The position numbers and the translations under genes were made by a program. DNA of 64,000 bases, from NCBI GenBank assembly GCA_022495995.1, contig JAFEMH010001289.1:186001-250000 (forward strand), read 5' to 3'. Below the pieces are notes generated by a model. It did not search any database, was not told the origin of the DNA, and saw nothing but the letters and a program-made list of their open reading frames with translations. This stretch comes from Adenophora triphylla var. japonica. Taxonomy: Eukaryota; Streptophyta; Magnoliopsida; Asterales; Campanulaceae. Shown here one piece after another: positions 21,104-64,000 of this stretch; position 1 is the first letter of the stretch; each line of letters starts with the position of its first letter.

Positions 21104-21143
21104 CTACGTATCCCTTGAACAAGGGAATCAAGCCAAATCGTAG
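21104..21143 (+). promoter_or_regulatory. CTACG/CGTAG stem-loop, type 1, element A
   Basis: CTACG (21104-21108) and CGTAG (21139-21143) enclose CCCTT/AAGGG (21112-21116 and 21121-21125). It is followed by TTCGG. It lies between the 3' LTR and the tandem repeats, upstream of the antisense gene. Confidence 0.6.
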
Positions 21144-21254
21144 TTCGGAATTACCAAAATTAAATTCATAAGCCAGAAAGGGGTAGAGACGTATCTTCAT
21201 ACCTTTGCTGTGCTTACCTGTGGTTTTCTGAGGGATCGGTATTACTGTGGTCGG

Positions 21255-21925
21255 ATAGTTGCTTCCTTTCACACCAGGTTGTAGCTGCCGGAGGGTCTCA
21301 TTCTGCAACTGGTACTTTTGCGAGTAGCTGTCGGGGGGTCTCATGCTATCGCTTTGTTGACGAGTTGTAGCTGACGGAGGGTCTCATGCTGCAACGGGTC
21401 TTCTGTGGATGCCAGGGGTCTCATACCACTTCTCTCATGCAGGATAGTTGCCGGAGGGTCTCACACTATTGCTGCTTCTTCTCGTGGATGCCGGAGGGAC
21501 TCATACCACTTCTCTTTCTTGCAGGGTAGTTGCCGGAGGGTCTCACACTACTGCTGCTTCTCTTCGTGGATGCCGGAGGGTCTCATACCACTTCTTCTTC
21601 TTCTTTGCTGGGGATGAGTATAGCTGCCGGGGGTCTCACGCTATCTCTTTCTGCTCTGTTGGGGATACATGTGGCTGTCAAGGGTCTCACGCTACTTCTT
21701 CTGCTCTGCTCTTTGTCGTTGATAAGTATAGCTGCCAGGGGACTCACGCTATCTCCACTTTCTGTTCTGTTCTGATAAGTATAGCTGCCAGGGGACTCAC
21801 GCTATCTCCGTTTTTCTGTTCTTTGCTGATCTTTGTGGATGCCAAAGGGACTCATACCACTTCTGCTTCTGCTTTTGTTGTTGATGAATGTAGCTGCCAA
21901 GGGGTCTCACGCTAATTCTTTGTTA
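21255..21925. repeat. Tandem repeats of element A 3' region
   Basis: Units of about 40-60 bp alternate GTAGTTGCCGGAGGGTCTCA- and GTGGATGCCGGAGGGTCTCA-type starts with CT-rich spacers, giving a higher-order period of about 85 bp at first. The array degenerates rightwards to ATAGCTGCCAGGGG blocks. Long open frames across it are a by-product. Confidence 0.8.
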
Positions 21926-22747: not shown

Positions 22748-24154
22748 TGAAATTACCCGGATCCGAGTAGGCTTCGCAGCCCCGGCATCTGGCATTTCCC
22801 CGCTTTGCAGCGTTTTCAAGTTGGAGGTGTCTCGCCGTTTGTTTTCGCATTTGTAGAGTCGCCACGCCGTTTTTATTAAGCCCAAAACATTGAAAAAGGG
22901 CATCAGTTTAAAGATAATTTTAAACTGTTTTTGTGTGATGAGATTTTGAGTTCGGAGGTCAGATGACTCCTCGGGAAGAGAATATTAGAATATTAGAGCT
23001 CACTCCGAGTAGCCTCGTAAAACGAGTCTTTCTGATACCCCTAATATCCTTTAAATGTTGTGTGTGTGTGTGTGTGCTTTTAAAAATGCATGTCAGACGG
23101 ATGTCTACATTGTATGCTATGTATGGAAATGTATTGAAATAGTAATGGAAGGAAGCCTTACCAATGTTGGTTCGTGTCTGTCTTCCGCCGGGGAATAGTG
23201 TTTGAGGTCGGAGTAGCGTTCCTGCATGGATCGGGATTGCTTCGGGAGATGCCGTTGTCCGCGGACAGCAGTTTCGCGTGAGTCGAGGTTGTAGGCTGCG
23301 TCGGGCAGAGGTTCGGCGTGCGTGGGGATCGCCTGGATCACTCTGCGCAGGTTCGGCGTGCGTTGTGGTGGCAGGAGTCACTCGGGCGTAGTTTCGGCGT
23401 GGCTGGGATCGCCGGTTTGACTCGGAAAAGAGCCGGACACCGTGGAAAGACTGTGCAAGGCCTCTGAGTACCACGAGGGGCCTCAGTAGTACCTCGAGAG
23501 TGCCTCTGGGCAGCGCGGAGCGTCTCTGAGCGCTGGGAGGCTTCTGAGCACCACGAGGGGGCTCTAAGGCCTCAAGGATCCGAAAGGGGCCGGAATGCCT
23601 CTAAGGACTTAGAGGGGAAGCCGAAGGCCTAGGGAGGAAGAGAGAAGTGGGAGGTGTGTGAAAATGAGGAGGGGGAGCCCTCTATTTATAGTGCCGTATT
23701 AGGTGCAAAGAGGTCCGTACGGACCTCCCCGGTAATCCAAGATTTTGGTTTTCCTCGATTTGAGGGAATCCGATGATGGAGGAATATTTGCAATTATGGT
23801 GTCCCCGAGCAATAAGGTCCGTACGGACCATCTTGCATGCAAAGAGGTCCGTACGGACCAACTCGCAGGGGGTAATCATTTCTCCCTGGATTTGAGGGAA
23901 TATTGTGGACTTTAAGAAGATTCAAGAATTATGACAACAAAGAGGTCCGTACGGACCAATATTGCTTTCCCAATTTCCCGAAAATTCCCAAAAGGTCCTT
24001 TTGTCCCTTTATCCTGCAGTAAAGGCTCCTCCCTTGGTTTGGTTGGGGGTTTAGAGAGGGTTTTGAGTGAGAGGGGTCGTCGAGACCGTGTTGATGAGTC
24101 TCGCGGTGTTTCCCGTGTGTTTGAAAGGGTGTGATCCAGATTGGGGTACTTACA
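22748..24154 (-). repeat. 3' LTR of element B
   Basis: 1407 bp, TGAAATTACCCGG ... GGTACTTACA on the plus strand. It contains four perfect GGTCCGTACGGACC palindromes (23712, 23816, 23846, 23944), a TATA box at 23682-23690, a (GT)n run at about 23057-23074, hairpins CTCGG/CCGAG and CTCGT/ACGAG (22970-23026), and GAGTCGCCA at 22856-22864. Confidence 0.9.
23682..23957 (-). promoter_or_regulatory. LTR promoter of element B: TATA box and four 14-bp palindromes
   Basis: TATAAATAG (complement of 23682-23690) is preceded in element sense by GGTCCGTACGGACC at 23712-23725, a gap of 21 nt, with further copies at 23816, 23846 and 23944. Most copies sit in the wider context CAAAGAGGTCCGTACGGACC. The same spacing recurs in the other two B-type LTRs. 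Confidence 0.75.
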
Positions 24155-24196
24155 GAGCCCTCGACGACGTCACTTATGAAAGAAGTGGGGTCGCCG
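24155..24196 (-). promoter_or_regulatory. Polypurine tract and hairpin of element B
   Basis: The minus strand reads GTCGAGGGCTC then the LTR start. CGACGAC (24162-24168) can pair with GTCGCCG (24190-24196), with one mismatch, around CACTT/AAGTG. Confidence 0.6.
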
Positions 24197-24326
24197 ATAA
24201 GATAAGTGGTCCTAACTGGATCGCGTGGCCGGGAGATAAAGTGACCGGGAGGTCAGCCGCGAGGACGTGGTGGTGTCCTATCGTGTGACCGCATAGGCCG
24301 CAGGGCCGGACCCCGTGATAGGATTC

Positions 24327-24538
24327 CTACGTATCCCCGGCGGGAATCAAGCCTCGGTCGTAGTTCGGTGTGGGGTGAGTGTTTTGTGAATGCGGGCGTG
24401 GTGGTGCCCCGAAGTGTCGTGTGACCGCCGAGGCCGCGGTAAGGACGCGGTGGTGTCCCGGGTGACCGCATAGGTCGATGGCCGGACCCCGTGATAGGAT
24501 TCCTACGTATCCCCGGCGGGAATCAAGCCCGGTCGTAG
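24327..24538 (+). promoter_or_regulatory. Two CTACG/CGTAG stem-loops, type 1, element B
   Basis: Copies at 24327-24363 and 24503-24538 have arms CTACG and CGTAG and inner TCCC/GGGA stems, with the AATCAAGCC linker. They are part of a duplicated block of about 177 bp. Confidence 0.6.
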
Positions 24539-24707
24539 TTCGCAGGTCGTGAATTTGTGAGTGCGGCGCGTGGTGGTGCCCCGAAGTGGTGGTGACCGCC
24601 GAGGTGACCGCCGAGGTCAATTGTGAGGACGTGGTGGTGTCCCGGGATGGAAATTTTATGATTTTCCTAATCGGGTGGTTTAAGGCCTTCCGGGCCGGAG
24701 ATAGTTG

Positions 24708-26483: not shown

Positions 26484-29450
26484 ATGGCTGAAGGATCTCG
26501 AAGGAGTCGTCGTCAACGCAGTCAAGAGGTGGTCGAGCAACGGATGGAGCTTCAAAGAAATTGGATTTCGTTCGTTCCATCTTCGAAGAACCCGGATGTC
26601 TTGTATCCGAATCCGGAGGTGCACAATCGTCGCTCTATGAACGTCGGGGAGGTAAGAAATCTGTTCCGTTTTGATTCCCTGCTCGAATTTTTGAATGCTA
26701 GAACTAGGTTTTAGTTTTTCGCATTTTTGAATTTTTTGTTATTATTATTATTTTTATTATTTTTTTATGCCTTTTTGTGAAATTCTTGATGAATTGTTGA
26801 AAATGGACATGTAAAAATTGTGGGTATGTGTATTTTGTGCAGAAATGTGTAGATTAGCTCTTATTTGTGAAAATAAAGTGCTTCTCTAATGAAATGCATG
26901 CTTTGGTGTTTTGTACCGTATGCTATTTATGTATGTACATTATGAGAAAAATTATCGTGTAGTGATAATTTTTGTGAAAAATGTGACATGTGCCGTGTTT
27001 TGTGACGGGTTTTGTCTGAAAGTGTGTGCCGTGTAGGGACGGATTTTTTGAAAAATGTGTTATGCATATGTGTCGTGCCGTGTGTGCCATGTTCTTGGGT
27101 GACGGACTTTGTGGGGAAAATATGTGCAATATGTGCCGTGTTTTTGTGACGGGTTATATGTGCCTTTGCCGTGTTGGGACGGACTTTTTTTTTTTGAAAA
27201 TGTGTCGTGTAGGGCTTAATCCCTTTTTTTTTTCTTTTGAGAGAAATGTGTACAGTGTGTGCCGTGTTTTTGTGACGGACTGCATGGGAAAAATTATATG
27301 TATAATGTATGTGAAAATTATGTGCGACATGTGCCGTGTTTTGTGACGGGTTATATGTGAAAAATATGTGCAATGTGTGCCGTGTTTTGTGACGGGTTAT
27401 TTTCATGGCTTTCCGTGTTGGGACGGACTTTTGTGCCTTTTGTTTTATATTAAGTACTGTGATTGACGTACCTTTGCTGTGTTTACCTGCAGGATGCGGG
27501 GCTTATGGCCGGGAAGGCCAAGAGGATGAAGACTCGGGATCGCTCGAGGCCGTTGTTGAGCCGTGGCGCCGGATGCCCGATATTTCCGTGGATGGTAGGC
27601 CGAGTCCCAGAGGCCGGTCTACGCTTCGGCCCGGGTGTGTTCGTCGAGAACCCGGCCGGAGTTTCGATACGAGGAAGAACAAGAGCGTCTTCCTTGGCCT
27701 TTCTCGAGTACCGGTGGGATACCACCCACACCTTCCATCCGAGCCGGGAGAGGTGACGGTGACGCCGACCGACTTTGCGGCGATTACCGGGCTTTCCTTC
27801 AAAGGAGGGCCGGTACGGTGGAGAGATATGATCTCCGATGTGGTGTCGACCGAGCCGGCCGGGCTTTGAGCCTCGTCCTCGCAGGGGCCCGGCATGTTGT
27901 ATAGTGACGTGGAGCCGAAGATCACGGCCAGCATTGGGGCCTACATCCGGGTACCGGCCAGTGACGGCGGAGCAGCTTGGCGCGCTCCTTTTGTGGTATG
28001 CACCGTCCGAGACTTTGTTCTCGAACCACGCGACCGCGGCTCCCTTTGCTCTGTTGGAGAGCTTGATTGACTCGGGATAGGGTCCGTGATATTGCTTGGG
28101 GCGAGGCGTGCTTGGCCGAGCTCTACTTCTCCTTGGACCGGTTTAGCCGGGCGCGCGCTCGTTGGCCTGCTTTTGACTTTGCTTTGGAGGTATGAGTTTA
28201 TTGCCGTTTTTGATTTAGCAACTTGTCGTTTCTCCGTTTTCTTTTGCACCGAGCCCTTCTCGTTTTTGTCACGTGTGGTTCTATGAGGTTTTCCAAAGTG
28301 CTTCCCGTGGGATAGAGATCCGGGCCGTTGCCGCGTACCCCGCTATGTCAATGGGCTCGCACGGCGAGGAAGAGGAGGACCAGCAGGGGGAAGCTCACCA
28401 TCGCCTACGGGGATGTGCAGGAGCGTCTGGAGAGGGGTAGCCCTGAGGGGTTCGTTTTGTTCCCGTGGGCTCGGTGATGAGGGGGATGAGTTTGAGGGGG
28501 CTCCCGAGGTGACAAGCCGCAGCGAAGATGCCGCGGGCTTGACTCCGCGATGTTATGTATCCTGGGGGAGCGGGTCTTCTGGCAAAGATGGCCCCGTGTG
28601 CTTCCCGTGGCTCCGAGGGACCCTCCCTTTGGGATGCTTGATTCCCGGGACATGGACGTGCTCGATTTTGAGAGGTACCTTGGCGGTGTGGGCGCCGAGG
28701 AGTTCATTTTGTATGGAGAGGAGTACGGGGCCTTCGTGAGGAGGAAGCTGAGGACGCCGCAGTACCGGCGAGGAGAGAGAGGCCGGCCCGCAGCTCCCCT
28801 GCAGGTTCCGATGCCGGGCCGGATTTCACGTATGTCCGCGGGGACGGATCGAGGAGGAGGGTGTCTCGTACCTGCTCGAGCAGCTCCCGCCGCATACAGA
28901 GTGGATCCCGATAGATCGGTGAGTGTGCCGACTCTTTTCCATCTTGGCATCTTTTCGTATTTTTCTCTTTTTGTTGTCGAGTATAACCGTATTGCCGAGC
29001 GTTTCCTTGGTCGCTTGTTGGTGCAGTCCCGGGAGAGCTTATGATATGCCGACTCGCCGTTACGTGGCGATGAGGTCGTTTGCGAAGAAGATGGCTTCAA
29101 GATATCTTGCCGGTCTCGCGACGCGTGCCGGCGTACGAGCCTATGCCTTCGAGGCATTCTCAGACGTTCCTCCGCCTAGAGCCGAGCCGGAGCCGCAGCA
29201 GAGGGACCTTCGAGGGGGCGGCATAGCATGGATGCCGGACGTCTTCGGGAGCCGCAGGCCTTCGAGGGAGCAGCCCTTTTATCGCTCATGCCTCCGCATG
29301 GCGCACAGGTGAGGGTTCCTCGAGCCTTCTTTCTTCGATCCTTTCGCCGGATTTGATCCTTCGGATTACTTTTCGTGGGAGCCTCCGGCGGTGCTCGGTG
29401 ATTCGACGACGAGGATGTGACGGCGAGTTCGCCGGGATGCCCGACTTTTC
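26484..29450 (+). pseudogene. Antisense gene 1 of element B: plant mobile domain protein, decayed
   Basis: Exon 1 (26484-26651) encodes MAEGSRRSRRQRSQEVVEQR and more, and ends at AG|GTAAG. A long repeat-filled intron follows, and exon 2 starts after CTGCAG at 27493. Exon 2 contains EYRWDTTHTFHPS and VTVTPTDFAAITGLSFKGGP, typical of the aminotransferase-like plant mobile domain. Later blocks include ETLFSNHATAAPFALLESLI and, after a frameshift at about 28075, a WGEACLAELYFSLDRF-type segment up to a donor at 28189. Further exon-like pieces reach about 29450, with stops and shifts. Plant mobile domain proteins are known both as genes (MAIN-like) and as retroelement passengers. Here the location antisense to gag-pol marks it as a passenger. 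Confidence 0.6.
26985..27430. repeat. Minisatellite-like repeats in the intron of antisense gene 1
   Basis: About nine imperfect units of 40-55 bp contain TGTGCCGTGTTTTGTGACGG or TGCCGTGT(A/T)GGGACGGA, separated by AT-rich links. They occupy much of the 840-bp intron (26652-27492). Confidence 0.7.
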
Positions 29451-29994: not shown

Positions 29995-31520
29995 ATGGAT
30001 TCTTCGTACGTCCCTAGAATTTTGCCGAGGCTTTCGCAGAGAGGCAAGCACACTTCCTTGAGCAGCTGAAAACGTGGATGCGGCGCCGTATGAGGCATCG
30101 TAGACGGGCTTTCGAGGTAAGGTTTCGTCTTTGCTCGATTTGGTCTTTTAAGGAGTTGGTTCCCGATTGGGATTTGTTGCGGGCCGCCGCGAAGTTCGGG
30201 ATGTTAGGAGGCACGTGTACTTGTTTCTCCTACAATGAAATGGTGCCCACTTTTGAGGATTTTCGGGCTTTGATTGGAGGACCGGAGGTGGAGGCCATCT
30301 CGCTTCCTTTCGATTGGTGGTGCCGCGCGAGCGTGAAGCTTGCAGTGCTTTCTTCGTACTTCGTTGGAAGAAGTGCAGGCATGATCCTTGATTCGGGTCA
30401 TATCGACATTTCGAGCCGCCTGAGCGGTTCATGGCCGATGATGAGAGTGACGTCTCTTGGGATGCATTTGCCTTGTGCGTGATGGCGACGCTTTTCATGG
30501 TCGCCTCCCTTGGCATTTGTGATGGCGCTTGCTAGATGTGGTAGGGCACCGCAGAGCCGGGAGAGGATATTGTCCCGTTGGTGCCGGGGGAGACTCTTCA
30601 TGGTATCGACCGTCCGGCGACCGGGGATCGGTTCATGAGAGGGGGAAGCCCCGCTTTGCTCACCTTGTGGCCGCGAGAGAGACTTCAAGCCATGCCCGAG
30701 GCTCCGACGTCGTTTAGCCCGTGGTCATTTGCTCGCCGACCTCTTGTGTTGGATATGGATCACCCGCCCGGGAGAGATGGATGGCACAGCCTTGGTACGC
30801 ATCGATCCGCCGGTGGGTTCCGCACCGGAGGATTGAGACTAGGAGGATCTTGCAGAAGGGTCCTACGTTGTCGTAGTTCCAGGTTTGTCTTGGTCCTCCT
30901 TCTATATTCCGTCGCTTGTTTCCCGGCAGCTTGGGATGAAGCAGAGCCTTTGTTGGGCCGGGATGACCTTGCTACCGCGGAGGTAGTTCCTCTTTGTATG
31001 GCGCCTTCAGTGCCTTCTTGTATTTTCCGAGGGTATGGAAGTATTCCGCTTCCCTCCCGTGGTACTCCTTAGACGTCGGGAGAGTGTCGTGTTGACGACT
31101 CGCACTCGGCCCGGTATGAGCAACAGTGTCAGGGCAGTCCCAAGTGGTCTTGGAGAGCGTGCGTGTAGCGATTCTCGGGACCCGGCTGCCGTAGTAGCTA
31201 TTGCCTTAGGAGTGCCGAAGCCCGGTCTCGACCCTTTCGATGTGACGGGAGACACTTTGTTTGACTACGAGACTAGAGTTGACCGACCGACAGGAGAGGT
31301 CCTCTTTGCGTACTCGCAGGAGGAGATCCGAGCCGAAGCACGGCGAATGAAGCCCCGAGAGCTACCGGATTGTTTGACTCTACGGGGAGGACCCCGATCT
31401 CTGACCGAGAGACGCAGAGTTGGTTCACGTGGAGCGAAAGAAGACTCGCCGGACGAGGGAAGAAAGGAAAGAATGGCGAGGGGACAAGCGCAGATGGCGC
31501 GGAATGACCTCCTAGGTATC
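29995..31520 (+). pseudogene. Antisense gene 2 of element B (DUF7745/plant-mobile-type), decayed
   Basis: The ATG at 29995 starts a frame that shifts early. The conserved part reads FRLCSIWSFKELVPDWDLL, then TCFSYNEMVPTFEDFRALIG, which is colinear with the antisense gene of A (CIWSLKDW ... YLTPTMEDFRALT). Later homology is spread over several frames and ends in a charged region (EEIRAEARRMKPRE) at about 31,300-31,520. The gene lies in tandem with antisense gene 1 and carries its own copy of the palindrome promoter, so the pair looks like a duplicated promoter driving two related passengers. Function unknown. Confidence 0.5.
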
Positions 31521-32237
31521 CATTCATTGCATTGCAAACACATTATTAGTTAAATGTATTAAGTCCGTCTTTTAGCATGTTGTGAACTTGAGAGTAGACC
31601 GTGCTTGAACTCATCAAGAAATGTTGTAACCGTTAGTGATTTGTGATTTACTTTTAAAGCTTTGTCGAGACGCAAGATCTCTTGTTTGCCTTTGTTTCTT
31701 TTGTGCACTTTGCTCGGCGTCCATCTGACTTTTCGTTGCATTTGCGGACCGAAGCGGCCTGGGCCATGACGGCAATCCCCTTTGCCGAGGCTTTGTGCTT
31801 GGCCGAGAGGTTGAATGCTCCCTCGACAAGTCGTTTTGACGGTCTTTTTCGTAGCTTCCTTGCCTCTTGTTGGCGTCTGCTCTTGACCTTTTTTCAGCCT
31901 TCGCTTGAGCTTCTTTTATTTTTTTTTTTTTTGTGAGCCCTTGCTCGAGCTCTCTTTTTTGTTTTTTTTTGTGAGCCCTTGCTCGAGCTCTCTTTTTTTT
32001 TTTTTTTTTTTTGAAGCGCGTGAGGGCGAAGACAAGCCCCGGCTTGGAAGCGCATACGAGTCACCGCTTGATGCCGAGTGACCCTCGGATGTCCTTTGAT
32101 GTTGCCGCCGTCGTTTGACTTGGTCAAGGTGACCGCTGGGGCGTGTTCTTGAAAAGTGCGTAGCTTGATGGAGGTCTTGATTGACATTCAAACTTTTGAC
32201 TTTTTGTGTATTTTTAGACCGGACCAATTAAGGTTGC
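31521..32237. other. Spacer with T-rich duplication between antisense gene 2 and integrase of B
   Basis: GTGAGCCCTTGCTCGAGCTC flanked by T-runs is present twice (about 31934 and 31972). The block 32010-32110 (GAAGCGCGTGAGGGCGAAGA and following) resembles 55640-55800 of element C. No coding sequence. Confidence 0.55.
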
Positions 32238-32273
32238 CTACGTTCCCTGACTAGAGGGCTCAGTCTCGCGTAG
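32238..32273 (+). promoter_or_regulatory. CTACG/CGTAG stem-loop, type 2, element B
   Basis: CTACG (32238-32242) and CGTAG (32269-32273) enclose CCCT/AGGG (32245-32248 and 32255-32258), with a CTCAG linker. It lies just beyond the 3' end of pol, at the far side of the antisense genes from the type 1 copies. Confidence 0.6.
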
Positions 32274-32284
32274 TTCGACACTAC

Positions 32285-33600
32285 ATGGAGTGCCAAGAGA
32301 TGCACAGCTTGTTCTTCTTCAGGCGAAGTATCTCGCGAAGTTTGCTTCCGTTGACCGGATTCATGAAGGGATTGCCGTCTAGGTCCGTGCCTTCATGGCG
32401 CCTCCGGAGAAGATCTTTCAACCACGAAAGGGCCGATCCATGTGGGTTCCCATTTTCCCAAATGGGTTGGTTCGAGTGGGAGGCTTTTCTTTGAGTACAA
32501 GGTCACCTTCCCCGATGTCTCGGGATTTGACTTTCTTGTCGAAAGCTCTAGCCATCCCGCTTTGATAGGCTCCTGACGTGTTCCATGGCCTTTAGTCGTC
32601 GCTCGTCTAGCGTGAGCCAATTCGTCATGTCGGCTTCGGAGCCATTCGACTTCGTTGATGTCATTTTCCAAAGAAGACTCTGAGTGAGGGAATTTCCACT
32701 CGATGGGAAGGACTGCTTCCATCCCGTATGTCGTGGCAAATGGGGTTTCTCCCGTGGTCGTTTCCTGACTGATGTGCGGTAGCCCCAAAGTGCAAGGTGC
32801 CTTCTCTGCCAATCTCGTCCTCGGTGGTCATTTTTCTGATGATCCGTTCGAGGGTTTTGTTTGCCGCTTCCACGGCGCCGTTTGTTTGTGGCCGGTAGGG
32901 AGAAGATTTGTGGCGTGTGATCTTGAATTCAGCCACAGCCTCGTCGAATTCCCTTCGAAGTGTGAACCATTGTCCGATATGACCTCATTTGGGATGCCGT
33001 ATCGGCATGATGTTTTCCTTGAGGAAATGCGCGACCTTCTTGGAGGTGAGTACCTTGTAGGACTTGGCTTCGACCCATTTGGTGAAGTAGTCGATGGCTA
33101 CTAAGATTGAACTCGTGACCGTTGCCGCCCGGCGGAGCGATTTTCCCGATGACGTCAATTCCCAAGTGGCAAAGGGCCAAGGTGTAGTCATGCAAGAGAG
33201 ATCGTGGGCGGTAGATGATTGAGGTTGGAGAACCGTTGGCACTTGTCGCAGCTCTTCGGACAAAGTGGATGCAATCCGCCTCCATGGAGATCCAAGAGTA
33301 GCCCATCCCGAGAATGATTTGCATCGTGGCTCGCGTTCATGTGGGGACCGCAAGCCCCATTGTGGACTTCGTTCATGAACTTGCTTGCTTCTTCTTGGCT
33401 GATGCAGCGTAGGAGTGGCCCATGGTAGCGTTTCTTGTATAGCATGTCCCCGAGGATGACGAAGTGAGAGGCAAGGCGTTTTAGGGCCATGATGCTCTTG
33501 GTTTTGACCCCTTCTGTGTGTGGGTCTTCCTTGTTCATGAAGGTGGTTTCCCCGTTCTTGAGGTATTGGAAGATCCGGTTTGTGCCGAAATGGCGTCTGA
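32285..33600 (-). pseudogene. Integrase remnant of element B
   Basis: Frameshifted on the minus strand. Recognisable pieces are a zinc-finger-side segment (DCIHFVRRA), the first catalytic-Asp block (LGIDVIGKIAPPGGNGH), and the RHKSSPYRPQTNGAVEAANK segment carrying the catalytic Glu. A C-terminal part ends at about 32285 next to the stem-loop. The sequence is colinear with the better preserved integrase of A (42175-43260). Upstream of about 33600 the expected RT/RNase H region is absent. Confidence 0.75.
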
Positions 33601-41552: not shown

Positions 41553-42174
41553 ACACACATTTTCCTTTTATTTTGAGAGACTCGAGACTCTTTTGCTTTA
41601 TGTTTTGAGAGTAGGAATTATCTCGTATGGAAACCGAGTACCCTTTGATTACTTAATGCGCATGTAATAGATGTTATCAATGTTTTCTTTTATTCGTAAT
41701 GCTTTTTGAGTCAAAAGGTAGGCCGTGCTTGAACTCATCAACAAGAATATTAACTCGAAATGATCCTTTGAAAAGCCTTGGGACTGTAATCAAAACGCAT
41801 TTTGGTAGAAAGAGAGATTTTTGCAATAGCTTAGACCGAACCACAAGTGGTTGCCTACGTTCCCCTTTTGTAAGAGAACTAAGGGGCTCAGGTCTCCGTA
41901 GTTCGACTCAATTGACTTTAGTGTTTAAGAAAGGGGAAGATAGAAGGGGGAAATGGTGCAACCCTGTTTTTTACCTAGACCGCCCTCTTTTGGGTTTTCA
42001 GTCTAGTTGGGTATATTCTTTAGCACCGGGCGCGTCCCTTATTTTTGCATGGACTGCCTTTTGAGAGGTTTTCAGTCTCATCTGGGACAATTTTGTTGCG
42101 CCTTTATTTATCATCATTTTTTATTTTTTTTATATTATTTTTTTTTATTTTTTTTTAGAGGGGGAAAGACTCGA
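41553..42174. other. Spacer between antisense gene and integrase of A, with type 2 stem-loop
   Basis: CTACG (41855-41859) and CGTAG (41897-41901) enclose a perfect CCCCTT/AAGGGG stem (41862-41867 and 41881-41886). A T-rich block (GTGCAACCCTGTTTTTTACC and following, 41955-42060) is shared with C at 55467-55640. Poly-T runs at 42115-42157 precede the end of integrase. Confidence 0.65.
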
Positions 42175-46605: not shown

Positions 46606-47376
46606 TCAACACAGAGGAATCTTGTCCGAAGATGTCGTCGGATCTATGGTACGTACTTGCCCCTTAGGCTTCTCAATTGTGAATCCGCTGAGCATTGGAT
46701 TTTCTTGGTCGAGTTTGATCTCCATTATCGGTAAGGTATTTGCGCTGGTTTCTCCGATCGTAACACTATCACCATAGATGGTTGTCGCACCCCTTCCCCG
46801 CACAAACTTTAAACATTGGTGAAGCGTGGAAGCTACGGCTCCAATCTCGTGGATCCGTGGTCTACCCAATAATTCTGAGAATGTAACAGGAATGTCTATA
46901 ACCTGAAACTCTACCATCATCTCTTTACCTCCAAACATCAGATTAAGGGAGACTATCCCCAACACTGCCCGGGATGTCGAATCATAAGTCTTTATGGTCT
47001 GGTTAGATGGTTTAAGGTTCTGCGCGTTGATGTCCAACATACTCATCATTTTGGCGGGGAGCACATTCATAGCTGACCCATTATCTATCAACACATGGGG
47101 AACCCGCCGTCCCTCCAGAGGCACCGTAATGTGTAAGGATTCGTTATGTTTCGCACCGTAAGCAGGCAAGTCAAGATCTGTGAAAGTAATGATATTCCCA
47201 TACTGAGCCGTTCCAATCAACTGACATGCTTCGTCTGGGGTAGCATTGACGGATACCTTCGTCTTGGACAAAGCTTCTTCCAACTTTGATTTGTAAGGGT
47301 AGGAGGATGTAAGTAGGGACCACAAAGAAATATCGGCTTGCGTTCTTTTCAACTGTGTCAGTATCGGGTCTTCCAT
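46606..47376 (-). pseudogene. Aspartic protease of element A
   Basis: A 256-codon open frame. GRRVPHVLIDNGSAMNVLPA carries the catalytic DNGS (complement of 47074-47085), followed by FSELLGRPRIHEIGAVASTL, the family's flap-side and C-terminal motifs. The frame overlaps the end of the gag frame, which shifts at about 47330. In relatives the enzyme cleaves the Gag-Pol polyprotein. Confidence 0.8.
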
Positions 47377-49920
47377 GAACTTCTTCGTCTAGCCTGTGAG
47401 GATTCTGAGAGGACTGAGGGTTAGAGCCTGCAACTGCTTTCCCTTTCCCGGACGGATCTGGATTATTTACTCCCAACATTCTTCCTGAGCGAGTCAACAG
47501 ATTAACTTCTTGCTGTTCATCAACCACGAACTCTTTGCTAGCTTCCTTGAGTTCTGCTAACGTGAGCGGGACAGGGTGATTGCGGTATGGCCAAGCTGCT
47601 TGTCGTATCTCATTGATGGGCAAGGGTGCTTCCCAACTAGCTGCTATTCTGAGTTCCTCCAAGGAAATTGGGGATTCTCTAGGAGTCATTGAAGATATAG
47701 CATTAACGATCAAGCGTTCTTCGTAATCATCAAGTTCAACAATATTATTCACATCATGTAAATCATCGATATACAGAACATAACAGAAGTTATCTTTCAT
47801 TTCATCAGAACAGGAGATTACATCAGTTTCGACCTCATTACAACCATTGCTATCATTCCCAACTACGGGTTCCCCAAACTCTAATACATTAACAAAATAA
47901 TCATTCTCAAAGTCAATAAGATTCACATTGTTGCTCGGCAGAGGATTGTTGACAATATTTGGGCAGGGAGGTTTCTCTATCTTCTTATCATCCACTAAGC
48001 CTTGAATTATCTTTTTGAGAGTTACGCAGGAGTTCGTAGTGTTCCCCGAAAATTGGTGAAAACGACAATACTTGCTAGCATCCATATGAGGATTAGGGCG
48101 AGCAGGACTGTAGTTCTCCAATGGCTTGATCATGCCAGTTCGTAACAAACCGTTGAAAACTTCCTCTGTTGACATACCCAAATCATCAAATTGCGGTTGT
48201 GGCCTAGGTGGAAGCCTCATCACATTCTGCACATTGTTACCTCCCTTTTGAAGATTATTGATACTATTGTCTTTGGTCGGCTCTCTTCCTCTTGGCGCCA
48301 TCGCTGAGACAGGATTGGATGCACGATATCGGTAACCTCCACCACTGCTGTTGTTACTGGTGTTTGCACTTGGAGTTTGGTTGAACAGTCTATTCTCACT
48401 CCTTGCTCCCATTCCCACCATCTCTCGCAGATCTGGGTACCATCCTTTCCCAATGGCTTCCCTAAGCGCTGGCTTAACACATGATAGAAAGATGTCCTTT
48501 TGGTCTTGGAGGGGGATTGGCTCCGATAACTCGTTGATCTTAGCATTCCAACGTTTGTAGAATTCCGTGATTGACTCATTCGACTTCTGGATAGTCCCTA
48601 CCAAATCATCCCGGGTAGTGCGCCATTCCAAATTACCCTTGTACTTTTCCAGGAAGGCTTCTGTTATCTGGCTCCAAGTAGTACGGCATTCTTGCTTCAG
48701 AGCTAAAAACCATGTAAGTGCCGATCCTTTCAAGGTTAGGTGGAAGTGGGAAGCCATGAATTCGGGAGTGCAGCCCATTGCCCCCATTGTCATCACATAA
48801 GTGTCTATATGCGTCTTTGGACAGGCGGTACCATCAAAGTATAGCTTGGGCATCTTAAACTTGTGCGGCAAAGGTGTCACTTGGGCGGGATCCACGACTT
48901 TAAGACCACTAGAACCCACGGTTAATCTGTCAATCTGTTGCTACATCTGTTCGGAAAGCGGTCACTTCCAGGTGCCAAACTTGAAGTCCGAGGAATTGCA
49001 GTGAGCCACCGTTGACGACGGTATTGGGAAATCAGAATTAGGTCCCACGGGCAAAGCGGTTGGTGGGAGACCAAAAGTACTAGGAATTCCAATATTGCTA
49101 TCCAACAAGCTAATCGGGCTAGGAATCTTGTTTCCATACATATCATAACCGTTGAATTCCCACCGGGTTCCGGGAGTCCGTATTGTGCCGACCGACCTGT
49201 CTCGACCAAGAGAAGATAATCCCGAGCCGACACACGGAGCCGAGTATGGGGTAGAACCATAAATATGCCGAGTAAGGGTGGAACACACCGCCGGTTGAGA
49301 AAAGATGTCTTGAGTCCGGAACCGCTGGTACCTTGAAACACCGTCCTGAACTATCTCGATTTCCCGAGAGCCAGACGACCATTCTCACAGACACCATACT
49401 GAACACCCTGGTAGCCATCGGGATACACACTGTTCTGAGGCTGGGAAAAACTAGCTCGGAACTGAGACCCATGCTGAAACTGCGGTGCTGGAGCATTAGG
49501 AGTTGGAGAAGCAGTGAGATCAAAGAAATTCGCAGCCGACCGTCGTTTCGCCGACACCTTGGCTGGATAACCCGGCTATACCCTCGAGAAGATGGGGGAA
49601 TGAGTCTTCCTTGGTCACTTGCCACCACCCCTGGAGAAGCTACTTGATCAGATCGCGGAACATAGCTCACTGGGGGAGGCATCGTATTGTAGCTAGGCTG
49701 GGTTGGTTGAACAGGTGAAGCGGATCCGATTTCATTATGGCTATCTTCCGTAATCTCTTCATAGGAACCATCCTCTCTACGAAGTACCGCAATCCCGAGC
49801 TAGAGCGGCTTCCAGCATCACCCTCAATTCTTCCGTAGTCATCTCATTCAAACCCGTCTGACCCACTGTCACTGAGCCTCCAGCGGACTGAGCAGAAAAA
49901 ACATCTCCATTGCCGGCCAT
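47171..49920 (-). pseudogene. Gag of element A
   Basis: It starts at MAGNGDVFSAQSAGG (49920), shifts frame in the middle part (49770-48930), then runs open for 582 codons from 48919. This holds the retrotransposon gag core (HFHLTLKGSALTWFLALKQE, SITEFYKRWNAKINEL), a Pro/Gln-rich link, and a CRFHQFSGNTTNSCVTLKK box resembling a zinc-binding knuckle. The last part switches to the protease frame. Nucleocapsid/particle role by family. The long clean core contrasts with the broken RT. Confidence 0.8.
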
Positions 49921-51228: not shown

Positions 51229-51229
51229 T

Positions 51230-52279: not shown

Positions 52280-52291
52280 TAATCATTGTTT

Positions 52292-52309
52292 TCCCCAGCG
52301 GAGTCGCCA
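52292..52309 (-). promoter_or_regulatory. Orphan primer-binding site left of the first C LTR
   Basis: TCCCCAGCGGAGTCGCCA directly precedes AAC and the LTR start at 52313. Only about 10-30 bp of C internal sequence remains before the A LTR begins, so this is the stub of a second C-type unit. Confidence 0.8.
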
Positions 52310-52312
52310 AAC

Positions 52313-53905
52313 TGTGAATGTGTGCCCAAATTTTCGTTGGATTCACGCGAGTTTGAAGACATCCGAGTTATTTGAAAAACGGAGTCGCCACGCCATTTTG
52401 ATTACCTCAAAACTTTGAAAAAAAGATTTTTTACTTGGGTTCGGAGGTTAAGTTACCCCTTGGGAAGAACGTTTGGCGTTCACCCAAAGTGCCTTGCCAG
52501 AGCAAGTCTCCCAAGATTTCAGTAATCGTGCTTGCTTGCGTTCTTTCTTGTGTGCATGTGTTTGAGAAAAAAGGGGGGAATGTCCCAAGTTGTCTTCCGG
52601 ACGTACAAACCATTTGGTTGTTGTCGCTCGGGATTCCTTGGAATTTTATGTATTTGGGATTATGATCCCGTCCTCATCTTATGACTTGTGATCATCGCAT
52701 TTTAACCTCGGGACCCTCGGGACTTGCGTGATCGAGATGATGTCTCTCTTTTTGGTCAAAGATGAGGTTCTTTAGAAAAGGAAGGTCCTTAGCCCATCAA
52801 TCCTACGCTTTAAGACGGTCGAGCTCGTATAGATGCTTCATACTCTTTCTTAAGCGATAATTGGAGATATAGGGTTCAAGGTTGTCCCTTTCTAAAGAAA
52901 TATGGAACCTTTAATGGAAGGAACGATGTAAAGATAGGATCTTTTACACCGGTTCGTTCCTAGGTTGCTAATGGGGACATGGGGGGAAATGCATGCAAAA
53001 ATGACACTTTTAGTGAAAAGATGGCATTTTAGAGTGTAAAGAATGTCTTTTGGTTGCAAGGGATGCCTTTTGTGCAAAGAAAAGATTTTTATGTAAAGAA
53101 TGCATTTTTATGTTGGAAAATAGTATTTAATGCATAAATGATGCATGAAAATGGCAAAGAATGATTTTTTAATGCAAAGAGTGAATCTTTAATGTGAAAA
53201 GGGTTTTTTTAGTGCAAAGGATGCACCATTAAAGCAAAGATGTCATTTTGGTGAAAAAGATATCCTTTTAATGCAAATGATGCTGCTCTGTATGCAAATG
53301 TTTTAGTTTAAATGCAGATTGATGCATTAGAAAAGGAAAACATCAGATTGCAGCTGAAAAGATAAGGAATCTGCAAACTGGCTACTTATGCCGCGTGACA
53401 TAGGCTGCCTATGTCGCGTGACATAACAAGCCATTTTGCAGAAGTCTAAACAACTGAGATTTGCAGAGGTAACAAGGCACCAAAATGGTCAAGTTACTTC
53501 ACAAACAAATCTCAGAGAGCATGTTTATTGATAATGAACACTTCAAGAGGGTGTGGATATGAGGGATCCACACTCATCTTGAGTGTTCATGCAAAACCAA
53601 GTTAAACCGAAGCTTTTATATGAAATGCAATGAAATAAAATGTGGATCTGGGTAATATAACATAAAGTATGCAACTTTAATCAGAATACTACATTATAAA
53701 TGCATTTAGCATAGAGATTTCACATTTGAATGAAAATAGAGAGTGGAAAAGGGTAGAAACTCGTTACCCTTGAAGATCCACAACTCCTATATCAAGTTAG
53801 ATATAGGAGCCTTCTAGCGTCCTCCTCCGGAGTTGATGTCCAGCCTTGAAACCGTGAGAATTCCTTGATTCTTGATGTATATATGAAGTGTGTTTGAAAA
53901 TTGTT
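52313..53905 (-). repeat. Left LTR copy of element C, lacking U3
   Basis: Matches the right LTR from its U5 end through hairpins (52460-52506, 53551-53573, 53784-53809) and the AT-rich minisatellite (52990-53330). It diverges at about 53,905 before the TATA/U3 part. The right border is approximate. Confidence 0.75.
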
Positions 53906-55096
53906 TAAGACGGGTTTCAAGCAGGTGGGGTCGTATCCCTTGGGTGCGGACTGAACTGCTGTTATTGCTGAGATGTTGTCAACGTGGACTAGAATTCCTT
54001 CTTGGGCTGAGACTGGGTTTAAACCTCGGGTCTTGATTAAGGTCCTTTTCTTAAACTTTGGCGCTTGAAGCTGATGCTGACAGGCAAAGCAGATGTTGAA
54101 GTGACCAAACCTCTCTTCTAGGGATGGATGTGACTTATCGGAGCCCCGGTCTGAGGAAAAACTTTCTACAAAGCCCCATGTCTTACTAAAGCAAGGAAAG
54201 ATCCTTTCATTTGGCAAAGCCCCGGTTGAATGAACTGAGTAGGCGAAGTGACTTGGCGAAGCCCCAGTCTGGTGACCTAGCAAAAATCCCAATCTGATTG
54301 GTACTGCGAACGTGATCCTGGGGTTAATCTGACCAAGACTGAATCCATCTAGGGACCTAGTGAAGAACTCGATGCGACCCCAAAAATGGCTAAAGAAGCC
54401 CCAGTTTAAAGGAATGGCTTGGCAAAGACCCAACTTTGAAGAGTTCCAAGGCAGCCCTAATGCGAATTGTAGCAGAAGAGGGAAAACCTATCCTTTTTTC
54501 TCTTTTTTTTTTTTTTTAATTTTTTATTTAGTCAATCAGTCAACCTTAAGAAGATGTGAAAGAAAAGATTTTATACATGCAGGGGCATATTTTTTTGAAA
54601 GGTGGGAATAAATCCCGATTTTGTGTTATTTTGATGGCCTTATTCGATGTAGGCACAAAAGCTCGCTTTGGGTCTGACTCTTTTGAGAGAGTATAAGCGT
54701 AGAAAGGTTGGTAAAAGTGTATGGAAGCCCCTGCTGACAGAAAATCAGTGTTTAGCACTATTTTTCCTAAGATGTAGAAAAGGAAGACTTGTCAAGACAT
54801 CTGAAAACTTGTTTTATTTACAATGATCACAAGATTGCTTAAAAACCCTTTGTTAATGTTCGGGTTATTCAACCACTAATATCGATATGAAAAAACATTC
54901 TTATTAATCATGAGGAGAAAGTCAACCAATGTCGTGGATCAAGGTTGGCTGGTGTGAAAGAAAGGTTTGTGTATAGGGAGGTCATTGATGAGACCAGGTT
55001 TTCTGGAATCTGACTGTGTCTTATGGGAGAGGTCATTTGATGAGACCGGGTTTTCGGGAATTTGGATGTGTTTATGACCGGGCCATTTCTGGTTGC
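53906..55096. other. Degenerate repeats and unrecognised DNA of element C
   Basis: 54060-54470 contains repeated (A/C)AAGCCCC or CGAAGCCCC words at irregular 30-60 bp spacing. 54495-54525 is poly-T rich. 55,000-55,060 has two GATGAGACC(A/G)GGTTTTC units. No coding sequence. Confidence 0.45.
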
Positions 55097-55135
55097 CTAC
55101 GTTCCCCTCATTGTGAGGAGCTCAGGTCGCCGTAG
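55097..55135 (+). promoter_or_regulatory. CTACG/CGTAG stem-loop, type 2, element C
   Basis: CTACG (55097-55101) and CGTAG (55131-55135) enclose CCTCA/TGAGG (55106-55110 and 55114-55118), followed by GCTCAGGTC. The inner stem differs from A and B but remains paired. Confidence 0.6.
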
Positions 55136-56235
55136 TTCGGCCTTGGCCGGACTGCTTCAGGCTTTGGGATTTGTGGTTCCTTTAGTGAAAAGGCTTAGGA
55201 TGAGATGATAATGAGGCGTGGGCCTCGGGATGATTCCTTGACCAAGTCATTCTTGGACGGCTGCTTCTGATTGCTTCCTCTTTCATTGGGGAAGAAGAAT
55301 TTACACGTGCCTACAGGCTTATGAAATGTTTCTGGCTTTGCTTCGACCGCCCCATTGTTATCGACAACTTTCATTCTCTGAGCTTTGATTTTTGCTTGTC
55401 CGTCGAGCTTTTGATTGGCAGTGTTGGGTCCTTGGCCTCATCATTTTTTTTTATATATATATATATGTGCAACCCTGTTTTTTGCCTAGACTGCCCTTTT
55501 TTTGGGATTTTCAAATTTAGCCGGGCATTACTCTTTTTGCACTAAGATTTTTCTTTTTTTATGTGCAACCCCGTTTTTGCCTAGACCGCCCTTTTTTGGG
55601 ATTTTCATTTAGCCGGGTATTACTCTTTTTGCACCGCATTTTTTTGAAGCACCTGAGGGCCAAGGCGAGCCCCTGCTTTAATTTCTCTTGACATCTTTGA
55701 GGTCGAAGACAGGCTCCTAGATTGTTGTCGACACGGGGTCAATCTTTCGAAGCTGAGTGGCCTTTTGCTGTCCCTTGATGATGCCGCCGTCGTTGACTTG
55801 GTCAAGGTGATGGGGAGGACATGGTTTGGGAAAGTGTATGGCTTTGATGAAGGCCTTTTGTGGGGTGAGGAAAGTGTATGGCTTGATGGCATTAGTTGAC
55901 TTTCTCACACCGATTAATCAGAATGTTAATTATTTCAAGAGATTATTTGTTGAGCAATGCAAGTGATCATATAAAATAAAACCATTTCATTAAATGTAAT
56001 GTAGGTGTGCAAATAATGTCTTAAGTCTAGCAAGAAAAGAAGAAGACTCTTTTATTGAAAATTGAAGATTGATTACAATGTCCGTAGAGGACTTGATTGA
56101 AAGAGGAAAGTACTAGAGCCTACGAAGGTTGACTGAGAGACTATTTTTTTTATTTATTTTTTTTTTTTAATCTTGCTTAAGGATAGGTAGACCCTAGTCT
56201 AGCTACTCTTCGCTGTCGGACTACATTTCTACCCT
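55136..56235. other. Spacer of element C with 96-bp direct duplication
   Basis: GTGCAACCC(C/T)GTTTTT ... CTCTTTTTGCAC occurs at 55467 and 55563. It is the same block that lies between integrase and the antisense gene in A. Microsatellite (TA)n precedes it. No gene; pol is absent where it would be expected. Confidence 0.55.
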
Positions 56236-60082: not shown

Positions 60083-60100
60083 TCCCCAGCGGAGTCGCCA
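60083..60100 (-). promoter_or_regulatory. Primer-binding site of element C (tRNA-Arg type)
   Basis: TCCCCAGCGGAGTCGCCA on the plus strand, identical to the A site, three bases from the LTR start. Confidence 0.85.
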
Positions 60101-60103
60101 AAC

Positions 60104-62377
60104 TGTGAATGTGTGCCCAAATTTTCGTTGGATTCACGCGAGTTTGAAGACATCCGAGTTATTTGAAAAACGGAGTCGCCACGCCATTTTGATTACCTCA
60201 AAACTTTGAAAAAAAGGTTTTTTACTTGGGTTCGGAGGTTAAGTTACCCCTTGGGAAGAACGTTTGGCGTTCACCCAAAGTGCCTTGCCGGAGCAAGTCT
60301 CCCATGATTTCATTAATCGTGCTTGCTTGCGTGCTTTCTTGTGTGCATGTGTTTGAAAATAAGGAGGGAATGTCCCAAGTCGTCTTCCGGACGTACAAAC
60401 CATTTGTTGGTTGTTGCTCGGGATTTCTTGGGTTTTTATGTATTCGGGATTATGATCCCGTCCTCATCTTATGACTTGTGATCATCGCATTTTAACCTCG
60501 GGACCCTCGGGACTTGCATGATCGAGAGAATGACTCTCTTTTGGTCAAAGATGAGGTTCTTTAGAAAAGGAGGGTCCTTAGCCCATCAATCCTACGCTTT
60601 AAGACGGTCGAGCTCGTATAGATGCTTCATACTCTTTCTTAAGCGATAATCGGAGATATAGGGTTCAAGGTATCCCTTTCTAAAGAGATATGGAACCTTT
60701 AATGGAAGGAACGATGTAAAGATAAGACCTTTACACCGGTCCGTTCCAAGGTTGCTAATGGAGGAAAGGGGGAAATGCATGTAAAAATGACACTTTAGTG
60801 AAAAGATGACATTTTTGGGTTGCAAATGATGTTTTTTGGTTCCAAGAAGTGATCTTTATGGTTTGAAGAAATGATTTTGTGCAAAGAATGCATTTTTATG
60901 TTGGAAAATAGCATTTAATGTACAAGTGATGCATGAAAATGGCAAAGAATGGTTTTTTTAATGCAAAGTATGCATTTTTAAGTATGAAAATGAGTTTTTG
61001 GGTGCAAAGAATGCATCTTTAATGTGAAAAGGGATTTTGAATGCAAAGGATGCAATTTCTAGTGCAAAAGGAATGATTTTAATGCATGAAAATGAGCTTT
61101 AGGTGCAAAGGATGCACCTTTATGTATGAAAATGGTATTTTAATGAAAAGATGTCATTTTATGTACATAGATACTATCTAAATTGCAGATAGACATAAGA
61201 TTATAGCATTATGGGGGTTAACATCAGATTACAGCTTGAAAAGATGAGGAATCTACAAACTGGCTACTTATGTCGCGTGACATAGGCTGCCTATGTCGCG
61301 TGACATAACAAGCCATTTTGCAGAAGCCTAAACAGCTGAGATTTGCAGAGGTAACAAGGCACCAAAATGATCAAGTTACTTCACAAACAAATCTCAGAGA
61401 GCATGTTTATCAATAATGAACACTTCAAGAGGGTGTGGACATGAGGGATCCACACTCATCTTGAGTGTTCATGCAAAATCAAGTCAAACCGGAGCTTTCA
61501 CATGAAATGTGATGAAATCAAATGTGGATCTATGAAATATGAAGCTAAAGCATGTAACTTTAATCAGAATGTCACATTATCAACGCATGTAGCATGTAAA
61601 TCTCATGTATAATGAAGATAGGAAGGGGAAAAGGGTATAAAATCGTTACCCTTGAAGACCACGACTCCCTATATCAAGTTAGATATAGGGGCCTTCGAAA
61701 CAGCAACCTACGGGGACTGAGTTCAATCCTTGGCTCCGTGGGAATCCTTGGTTCTTGGTGTGTGTGAAAAGTGTGTGTGTGGGAAGTGTGTGTGTGGGAT
61801 TGATTTGGGAGGATTATTATGGTTTGGGAGGTATGTGAGGAGAGAGGAGGCTTCTGGGCGTATTCCCTATAGAGGGGGACTGAGGGGTGGAAGAGGTGTC
61901 TGTAAAATGAGAGGTGAAGGCCTCTATTTATAGGCTGCCTGCATGGGCTTGTTATGTCGCACGACATGATAAGCCATAACCGTTTTCCTTCTAGAAACAT
62001 GCAAGGTGGCATGGTTCTAGAACTCTCTCCGGGCCGGTTATGTCGCACGACATAAGTAGCCACATGTGCCTTCCTTCGAGAAACATGCAAGGTGGCAGGT
62101 TTCTAGAAGGTTTCATGGCCTATTATGTCGCACGACATAAGTAGCCACATCTGGATCCTTCTAGAAACATGCAAGGTGGCAGTCTTCTAGAAGGGAATTC
62201 CTCATGAAATAAAAACGTGTTTCTTTGGCTCCAAGCAGTCTCTTATCCCCTTAGGTGATTTGAAACAGTTTCGGAATTGTTCCGGAACTCTAGGAAAGTC
62301 CGGGGAATTACCGGAAAACTTGCCGGAATTGCCGGGAAACTTAACCGGAAGGCATGAGCCAGATTTGGGTACTTACA
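60104..62377 (-). repeat. 5' LTR of element C (complete)
   Basis: 2274 bp, TGTGAATG ... GGGTACTTACA. It contains the U5 primer-like motif (60172-60181), the double hairpin (60251-60297), an AT-rich minisatellite with AATGCA words (60780-61170), inverted repeats TGTCGCGTGACA (61271, 61294) and TGTCGCACGACA (61955, 62041, 62126), and a TATA box at 61924-61932. Confidence 0.9.
61924..62137 (-). promoter_or_regulatory. LTR promoter of element C
   Basis: TATAAATAG (complement of 61924-61932) is preceded, after a 22-nt gap in element sense, by TGTCGCACGACA (61955-61966). Two more copies lie at 62041-62052 and 62126-62137, spaced 85-86 bp. Each is followed by AAGCC or AGTAGCC, and a TTCTAGAA/CATGCAAGGTGG block recurs with each of the two distal units. 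Confidence 0.7.
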
Positions 62378-63686
62378 CCCGGCATCTGGCATTTCCCGCT
62401 TTGCAGCGTTTTCGTTGGTGGAGGTGTCTCGCTGTGTTTTGCTTTGTAGAGTCGCCACGCCGTTTTGATTATTAAGCCCAAAACATTGAAAAAGGGCATC
62501 AGTTTAAAAATAATAATAAACTGTTTTGTGTGATGAGATTTTGAGCTCGGAGGTCAGGTGACTCCTCGGGAAGAGAATATTAGAATCTTAGAGCTCACCC
62601 GAGTCGCCTCGTAAAAACGAGTCTTTCGGTACCCCTTATATTCTTTAACTGTTCTGTGTGTGTGTGTGTGCGCTTTTAAAAATGCATGCTGTATCGGATG
62701 TCTACATTGTACACTGCTTTATTGAAATGTATTGAAATAGTGTAGGAAGGAAGCCTTACCAATGTTGGTTCGTGTCTGTCTTCCGCTGGGGAATAGTGCT
62801 TGAGGATGGAATAGTGCTCTGGGACGGACCGGGATTGCTTTGGAAGGAGTCGGTTGTCTGCGGACAGAGCTTCGGCGTGCCTCGGGATTGTCAAGTGTGC
62901 ACTCGGGCAGAGTTTCGGCGTGCGTTGGAATCGTCGGTTGGATTCGGGCAGAGGTTCGGCGTGCGTTGGAATCGTCGGTTGGATTCGGGCAGAGGTTCGG
63001 CGTGCGTTGTAATCGTTGGTTGGATTCGGGCAGAGGTTCGGCGTGGGTTGGAATCGTCGGTTTGACTCGAAAAGAGCCGGGACGCCTCGGGAAAGACCAG
63101 GAAAGGCCTCGGAGTACCACGAGGGGCCTCAGAGTACCTCGAGAGTGCCTCGGGGCAGCGCGGGAGCGTCGCGGGAGCGCTCGGAAAGGGCTTCGGAGCA
63201 CCACAAGGGAGCTCGGAAGGCCCCGGAGGGAACCGAAAGGGACCGGGAGTGCCCCGAGGGGTCTTAGAGAGGGAGCCTGAAGGCTTAGGGAGAGAAGAGA
63301 AGAGGGAGGTGTGAAAAATAAGGGAGGGGGAGCCCTCTATTTATAGTGTAGGAAAAACTGCAAAGAGGTCCGTACGGACCTCTTAGGTAATCCAAAATTT
63401 TAGATTTCCGGGATTTAAGGGAATCCCGTGGACTTTAAGGGGATTTTCGTAATGATTATGTCTGGTGCAAAGAGGTCCGTACGGACCTTTTGGCATGCAA
63501 AGAGGTCCGTACGGACTTTCCATGCTCTTGTGAATGTGATGGCAAGCTAGCTCTCATCGAGAGCTTTCCAACCATATATGGCACGTCTCAATCGGAGTTC
63601 GTATGAAGGAGTTATGACCTCCGGAAGTTTGCCTCTGGTTTTGTCGTATGTTGGGATAGAAAGCGATCCAGATTGGGGTACTTACA
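62378..63686 (-). repeat. Third B-type LTR (3' LTR of an element extending past the window)
   Basis: Colinear with the B LTRs, but it lacks the first 35 bp or so: it begins CCCGGCATCTGGC directly after the C LTR. It has palindromes at 63367, 63474 and 63504, a TATA box at 63337-63345, hairpins CTCGGG/CCCGAG (62565-62603) and CTCGT/ACGAG (62608-62621). Its sequence differs noticeably from B, so it is a different insertion. Confidence 0.85.
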
Positions 63687-64000
63687 GAAGCCCCTCGGCG
63701 ACGTCACTTATGAAAGAAGTGGGGTCGTCGATAAGATAAGGGTCCTGATCTGGATCGCGTGCTGAGAGAGGAAGTGACCGTGTAGGTCTGTGCGTGAGGA
63801 CATGGCGGTGTCCTGCTGTGTGACCGTTTAGGTCAGTTGGTTGGACTCTGTGATAGGATTCCTACGTATCCCTAGCAGGAATCAAGCCTGATCGTAGTTC
63901 GTGTGTGGGGTGAGTGTTTGTGGTGCACGAGGATGGAAGAGGTCCTCTGACTGAAACTCTGTGTGTGGACGTGGTAGTGTCCTGTGGGTGACCGCATAGG
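63687..64000 (-). mobile_element. Start of the internal 3' region of a further B-type element
   Basis: Directly after the LTR come the polypurine tract, the CGGCGAC/GTCGTCG hairpin (63696-63730), a type 1 stem-loop (63862-63897, arms CTACG/CGTAG) and GAGGACATGGCGGTGTCCTG-type repeats as in 24255-24660 of B. The element continues beyond the window. Confidence 0.8.

Follow-up and report, generated by a model that had tools for sequence, protein, structure and literature searches.

A 64,000-nucleotide stretch of the Adenophora triphylla var. japonica genome (contig JAFEMH010001289.1, positions 186,001 to 250,000; hereafter the window) carries ten copies of a compact pseudoknotted RNA motif, which reside in apparently Ogre-like long terminal repeat (LTR) retrotransposons, termed elements A, B, C, D and the last element. 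The fold comprises an outer stem P1, an inner hairpin P2 and a second hairpin, and is closed by a pseudoknot of 4-6 bp that runs from the 5′ bulge of P1 to a strand after the second hairpin. We tentatively propose that the motif serves as a cis-acting tag for the handling of full-length element RNA, in export and/or packaging. A preliminary description of the window had reported repeated CTACG...CGTAG stem-loops, and a pattern scan together with direct reading located all ten copies, every coordinate being right. Each of these hairpins is part of a 60-71 nt RNA on the coding strand of the element, of which the second hairpin and the pseudoknot had been missed.

In coding sense, the motif has the layout GAA-CUACG-N2-5-[PK]-UGAK-hairpin-WA-CGUAG-GNA-second hairpin-YYC-[PK'], where PK and PK' are the two pseudoknot strands; in DNA letters it reads GAACTACG...TGA...CGTAGG. 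Side-by-side reading of the copies revealed that the first hairpin is followed by the second, and then by a 4-nt strand that complements the first bulge. The codes GGCT/AGCC, GACC/GGTC, GGTC/GACC and GGCC/GGCC are found in separate lineages, and such distinct, fully complementary codes at one place are a stronger argument for the pseudoknot than covariation counts. Sequence conservation ends abruptly outside the GAA and past the last pseudoknot strand. The C before this strand is near-invariant (99/102 copies; 96% in each class). For A, B and C the earlier description gives the antisense strand, on which the trailing TTCG is the reading of a conserved CGAA on the 5′ side. A pairing of the 5′ GAA with the YYC was dropped, as the middle base does not follow, and loop-E, kink-turn and twister readings were weighed by eye and dropped.

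The window was scanned with the pattern CTACG N10-35 CGTAG, which represents the P1 arms in DNA letters. It gave ten matches against 0.22 expected, a number reached in none of 100 shuffles, and the motif accounts for nine of the ten. The match at 34957 and a site at 50615 were rejected, neither having the core, and the copy at 41855-41901, with an interior too long for the pattern, was read directly. Across the 2.48 Gb assembly, the same pattern matches 112,147 times, compared to 36,922 times for the reversed control.

The coding strand is plus for D and minus for A, B, C and the last element, as follows for A and B from the LTR pairs and the gag and integrase frames; D and the last element are both cut off by the window edges. 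D has three UGAU copies on the plus strand (375..435, 696..756 and 979..1041), the first two with the pseudoknot GGCU/AGCC. In the third, the inner stem is altered on both sides relative to the others, in agreement with the compensated change claimed for these tandem copies. All other copies are on the minus strand. Element A has a UGAG copy at 41834..41904, about 270 nt past the integrase frame, and a UGAU copy at 21078..21146, 465 nt before its 3′ LTR. Element B has a UGAG copy at 32217..32276, about 60 nt past the integrase match, in which the bulge AGAC pairs with GUCU one base further on, and two UGAU copies at 24304..24366, 149 nt before its 3′ LTR, and 24480..24541, both with GGCU/GGCC. 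Element C has a UGAG copy at 55076..55138 and lacks a UGAU copy before its 3′ LTR, and the last element has a UGAU copy at 63839..63900, 323 nt before its 3′ LTR. Both classes thus occur in A and B only, C having UGAG only and D and the last element UGAU only. Upkeep is uneven: the pseudoknots are intact in the UGAU copy of A (21078-21146) and in the UGAG copy of C (55076-55138), and broken in the last element (GGCU/AACC). These placements support the single orientation relative to the element and the position of the UGAU type near the 3′ LTR, both of which had been described before.

Compensating changes and the fixed outer stem

We collected 106 distinct candidate copies from the window and further loci, of which 102, selected to have P1 with at most one mismatch, were parsed and counted. 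The other four were dropped, comprising one false copy, one real UGAG copy that was miscut (L017 1924), and two with an altered second hairpin or inner stem (L033 and L035). The four pseudoknot positions form Watson-Crick pairs in 95, 94, 92 and 94 of the 102 copies, and all four pairs are intact in 77 copies (14/26 in the non-redundant set). In total, 375/408 pseudoknot cells are paired, compared to a shuffled mean of 297 and a largest value of 320 in 2000 shuffles, and none of the 16 other offsets tried within 8 bases exceeds 52%. In the non-redundant set, 88/104 cells are paired, against 68.6 in shuffled sets and 85 in the largest shuffle.

The whole structure was tested on an alignment (A3, n=29) of the 26 non-redundant copies, the copy L047 and two copies from outside the genome (L128 and L207), which begins at the pseudoknot strand, with the P1 5′ arm outside it. 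The three helices comprise twelve pairs, in which 91.2% of cells are paired (79.3% shuffled; at most 54.7% when slid), with a covariation of 0.465 (0.244 shuffled; at most 0.161 slid). Two-sided change occurs in 10 pairs, compared to 7.2 in shuffles, of which 2/500 reach this number, whereas further pair types (22 vs 20.1; 69/500 reach) do not exceed shuffles. The pseudoknot alone has 87.9% of cells paired against 72.8%, a covariation of 0.559 against 0.251 (at most 0.203 slid), and two-sided compensating change at all four pairs. Kinship among the copies inflates these covariation counts.

Both P2 and the second hairpin covary, whereas P1 (CUACG/CGUAG) is nearly invariant. Covariation of the outer stem was accordingly rejected, as P1 hardly varies, and of the co-varying stem-loop described before only the inner stem compensates. 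To look at P1 independently of its sequence, a scan blind to it was made with the pseudoknot, UGAK, the inner stem, the second hairpin and the spacing as criteria. It found 39 places in 264 kb (the window and 20 loci), compared to zero in each of three shuffled sets. Every one of the 39 carries CTACG/CGTAG with at most one mismatch (33 exactly), and GAA precedes P1 in 38; this is only a partial test of P1, because 20 of the 21 sequences had been fetched for containing it. P1 and the junction bases are fixed inside a freely compensating fold, which suggests that something reads them.

Placement along the elements and candidate roles

The copies fall into two classes that differ in their linkers, as had been noticed: UGAG with AA before the 3′ arm of P1 (26/26), and UGAU with UA (75/76). 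A weaker distal hairpin with a 4-bp stem is found in 63/76 UGAU copies compared to 1/26 UGAG copies. It lies 2-10 nt after the pseudoknot and is mostly GACC..GGUC, in some cases GAUC..GAUC (e.g. window 435-460). The UGAG class sits just after pol, and the UGAU class before the 3′ LTR, often in tandem. At all seven sites where the integrase of this lineage and the sequence following it are both present (L009, L013, L016, L017, L028, and A and B of the window), a UGAG copy lies 45-275 nt after the integrase match; that of L013 has its UGA mutated, and that of L009 is counted under the overlapping locus L005. No UGAG copy follows three other integrase matches, namely that of a second family, termed Y, and two distant ones (35-36% identity) in L022 and L023.

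Family Y (L021/L022), with LTRs 97.7% alike, has its UGAG copy before gag, about 430 nt after the 5′ LTR, and a UGAU copy roughly 75 nt short of the 3′ LTR. The leader placement holds for the three copies examined (L021, L047 with L238, L034 with L240), and the placement beside the 3′ LTR for four of five, the UGAU copy not being found for L033 with L241. The position just beyond pol given earlier for the UGAG type therefore stands for the main family and fails for family Y.

The two types flank the antisense genes in A and B, as had been described, and L012, L017 and L028 likewise have both antisense gene types between a UGAG and a UGAU copy; in L014 and L024 an extra UGAU copy separates the UGAG copy from the antisense gene. 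The further claim that the stem-loops bracket the antisense cassette in every family did not hold. In family Y the integrase and the UGAU copy enclose the antisense genes, with the UGAG copy on the far side of gag-pol, so that the pair brackets gag-pol and is not specific to the cassette. In addition, element C has a UGAG copy and no antisense gene (one 92-aa plus-strand frame only), with gag-like remains as its only coding trace. The positions thus track landmarks of the element RNA, namely the pol end or 5′ leader and the 3′ LTR, rather than the cassette as such, and the frequent position of antisense genes between the copies probably reflects the place where this lineage carries its extra genes.

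These observations bear on the possibility that the motif serves antisense-gene expression, as antisense RNA or DNA that sets 5′ or 3′ ends, termination or silencing. In A, B, L012, L017 and L028 the motif does flank the antisense genes, and the one-sided pseudoknot changes favour an antisense reading. The leader copy of family Y beyond gag-pol, the copy kept by element C without such genes, and the GNRA or UUCG loops in sense orientation all speak against it, and we regard this role as quite improbable. The sense strand is inferred because the two copies of family Y can be present together only on a genome-length transcript, and because GNRA or UUCG loops occur, when read in sense, in 12 of the 18 copies with a second hairpin of 3 bp and a 4-nt loop.

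In the proposed mechanism, the motif would act in sense orientation, within the genomic RNA of Ogre-like LTR retrotransposons, where the copies would mark the full-length RNA in cis, and the fixed P1 and junction bases would form a face read by a protein. The most likely role would be export of intron-retaining RNA and/or packaging with Gag, as for the IAP and MusD transport elements near the 3′ LTR. Locations beside the 3′ LTR, in the leader or behind pol are typical of export and packaging signals. According to the accessible text of PMC6317226, Ogre elements have a partly spliced intron, which implies a need for export of the unspliced RNA, and the MusD transport element is a pseudoknotted RNA in the part of PMC12786077 consulted.

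Several points weigh against this proposal. The two families differ in where the UGAG copy sits. NXF1 export, the route of the animal elements, is closed to plants according to the same part of PMC12786077. For the pseudoknot alone, two of five covariation measures fall within shuffles (two-sided change, 46/500; pair types, 78/500). Finally, the non-redundant set has nine A.C against two G.U among its one-sided pseudoknot departures, which leans the wrong way for a sense RNA, although most of them are in decayed copies.

A narrower role in packaging or dimerisation only, in which the genomic RNA is selected by Gag, or by contacts between RNAs that swap pseudoknot strands, and the differing codes of the two classes would prevent cross-pairing, is conceivable though rather doubtful. 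It gains from the UGAG copy of family Y, between the primer site and gag in the classical packaging place, and from the UGAG copy retained by element C with no antisense gene and only gag-like remains; however, the main family has this copy after pol instead of in the leader, and a fuzzy scan detected no copy in the leader of either A or B. An exoribonuclease-resistant RNA, which would block 5′-to-3′ decay and leave stable 3′ fragments starting at the motif, would agree with the pseudoknot, the tandem copies, the conserved 5′-edge bases and a first copy directly after the last sense gene. We consider it improbable, as the topology is unlike the known plant-virus and flavivirus kinds, no such Rfam model matches, and a copy placed in the leader, as in family Y, would fail to spare the LTR end.

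Large parts of plant genomes consist of Ogre-like elements. The compact, strongly conserved pseudoknot provides a defined RNA for experiments and a small seed with which similar elements could be sought in other plants. According to the consulted part of a 2025 review (PMC12786077), direct studies of the export of plant LTR-retrotransposon RNA are lacking. The motif may also supply a candidate target for the antisense plant-mobile-domain genes. It is a long shot that these form a plant circuit like that of Rev and the Rev response element (RRE), in which the antisense plant-mobile-domain proteins would bind the sense-RNA pseudoknots and carry the unspliced genome from the nucleus or into particles; if so, the RNA marks would bracket the genes that read them, with two pseudoknot codes keeping the sites apart.

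Known RNAs and copies outside the genome

No Rfam model matches the window at the gathering threshold. At E up to 5 there are two weak matches in 41700-42000 and eight in 18 loci, none of which overlaps the motif. The literature searched, with most subscription journals outside it, yielded no paper on this RNA; in the searched text of PMC11963269 the terms 'hairpin', 'stem' and 'secondary structure' are absent, and in that of PMC6317226 'stem' occurs once and 'conserved motif' is absent.

The constitutive transport element of Mason-Pfizer monkey virus (MPMV) is a cis-acting RNA grouped with the MusD and IAP transport elements. Like the motif, which is a structured RNA close to the 3′ LTR, the latter (MTE and RTE) are cis-acting RNAs near the 3′ LTR of LTR retroelements, and MTE is pseudoknotted; they differ in fold and sequence and act through NXF1, unused by plants (PMC12786077, in the part consulted). 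Plant retrozymes with hammerhead ribozymes (PMC4918200) are likewise structured RNAs kept in plant LTR elements, but they have a hammerhead fold and are non-autonomous elements, and the motif has no Rfam match.

The motif shares with HDV-like (hepatitis delta virus-like) ribozymes the nested pseudoknot and the strand order P1-P2-P3-P1'-P4-P2'. Together with the near-invariant C before the last strand (99/102), this order would suit a self-cleaving ribozyme of that kind. HDV-like ribozymes also have a P1 of about 7 bp starting with G, whereas that of the motif is 5 bp and starts with C, and no Rfam ribozyme model matches. The motif further differs in its added UGAK and WA junctions and in conserved bases 5′ of the would-be cut, and a cut would separate pol from the 3′ LTR; self-cleavage thus appears very improbable.

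A generic pattern scan gave 51 viral loci and at least 118 loci from prokaryote genomes. The strict structural pattern matched none of the 169 outside loci listed. A filter comprising UGAK, the inner stem, GNA and a C preceding a pseudoknot strand of 4 bp or more was passed by two of these 169 (L128 and L207; shuffled mean 0.007, largest 1) and by 68 of the 102 own copies, the two loci having first been chosen by eye and the filter written afterwards. Both have pseudoknots of 6 bp, GGACUU/AAGUCC in L128 and GGCCUU/AAGGCC in L207, which add two compensated states. L128, labelled Solirubrobacter, is 4,160 bases long with 35% GC and two frames of at least 90 aa, and is probably a contaminant in a bacterial assembly. 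L207, from a roe-deer gut assembly, adjoins bacterial-looking frames, with an even GC of about 0.30. A search for integrase in the viral contigs found nothing.

Host elements and other features of the window

The frames of L021 in family Y contain RVT_1 and RT_RNaseH, followed by RVT_3/RNase_H, Integrase_H2C2 and rve, which places an archaeal-type RNase H (aRH) between RNase H (RH) and integrase (INT). The order reverse transcriptase (RT)-RH-aRH-INT, with antisense plant-mobile-domain genes after pol, is that of the Ogre lineage of Tat-clade Ty3/gypsy elements (PMC6317226) and of the Retand pol-3′LTR region (PMC11963269), as far as the accessible texts of both describe them. The order in family Y and the antisense genes therefore agree with an Ogre-like nature of the host elements, as described in PMC6317226, where the accessible text gives an antisense plant-mobile-domain gene in 57% of Ogre elements. 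A family Y frame before RT (L021:5601-7094, plus strand) has a G-patch domain barely above the Pfam cut-off.

The antisense gene of L022 exceeds the Pfam cut-offs for both DUF7745 (71 bits) and the plant mobile domain (PMD; 46.2 bits, cut-off 34.9), and that of L012 for DUF7745 only, with PMD below. L017 (DUF7745, 25.8 against 26) and L024 (PMD, 31 against 34.9) fall below. In 15 plus-strand frames of the window no Pfam match was found, and its antisense plant-mobile-domain genes, all on the plus strand, were identified by tblastn with relatives. They are decayed DUF7745/plant-mobile-domain genes in B (30039..31286) and A (40008..41121), and a decayed second plant-mobile-domain gene in B (28076..28798). 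Overlapping tandem repeats at 24709-26177 lie between the UGAU copies of B and its antisense genes.

Element B is nested in element A. The 3′ LTRs, on the minus strand, lie at 19548..20613 in A (5′ LTR 51226-52279, 95% identical), 22749..24155 in B (5′ LTR 38579-39998, 94%), 52289..53896 in C (5′ LTR 60080-61779, 84%) and 62378..63516 in the last element, the latter being related to the LTR of B. Also on the minus strand, element A has a gag frame with Retrotrans_gag (47174..48940) and an integrase frame (42175..43188), whose rve match of 22.3 bits is below the Pfam cut-off of 32.6; this frame has 1951 homologous proteins, with Vitis, Spinacia and Gossypium among the 120 listed. The integrase of B (32335..33291, minus strand) is decayed. 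The one clear non-transposon frame seen in the window is a host-like glycosyl hydrolase family 31 frame of 634 aa at 11753-13654 on the plus strand (Pfam 379 and 68 bits).

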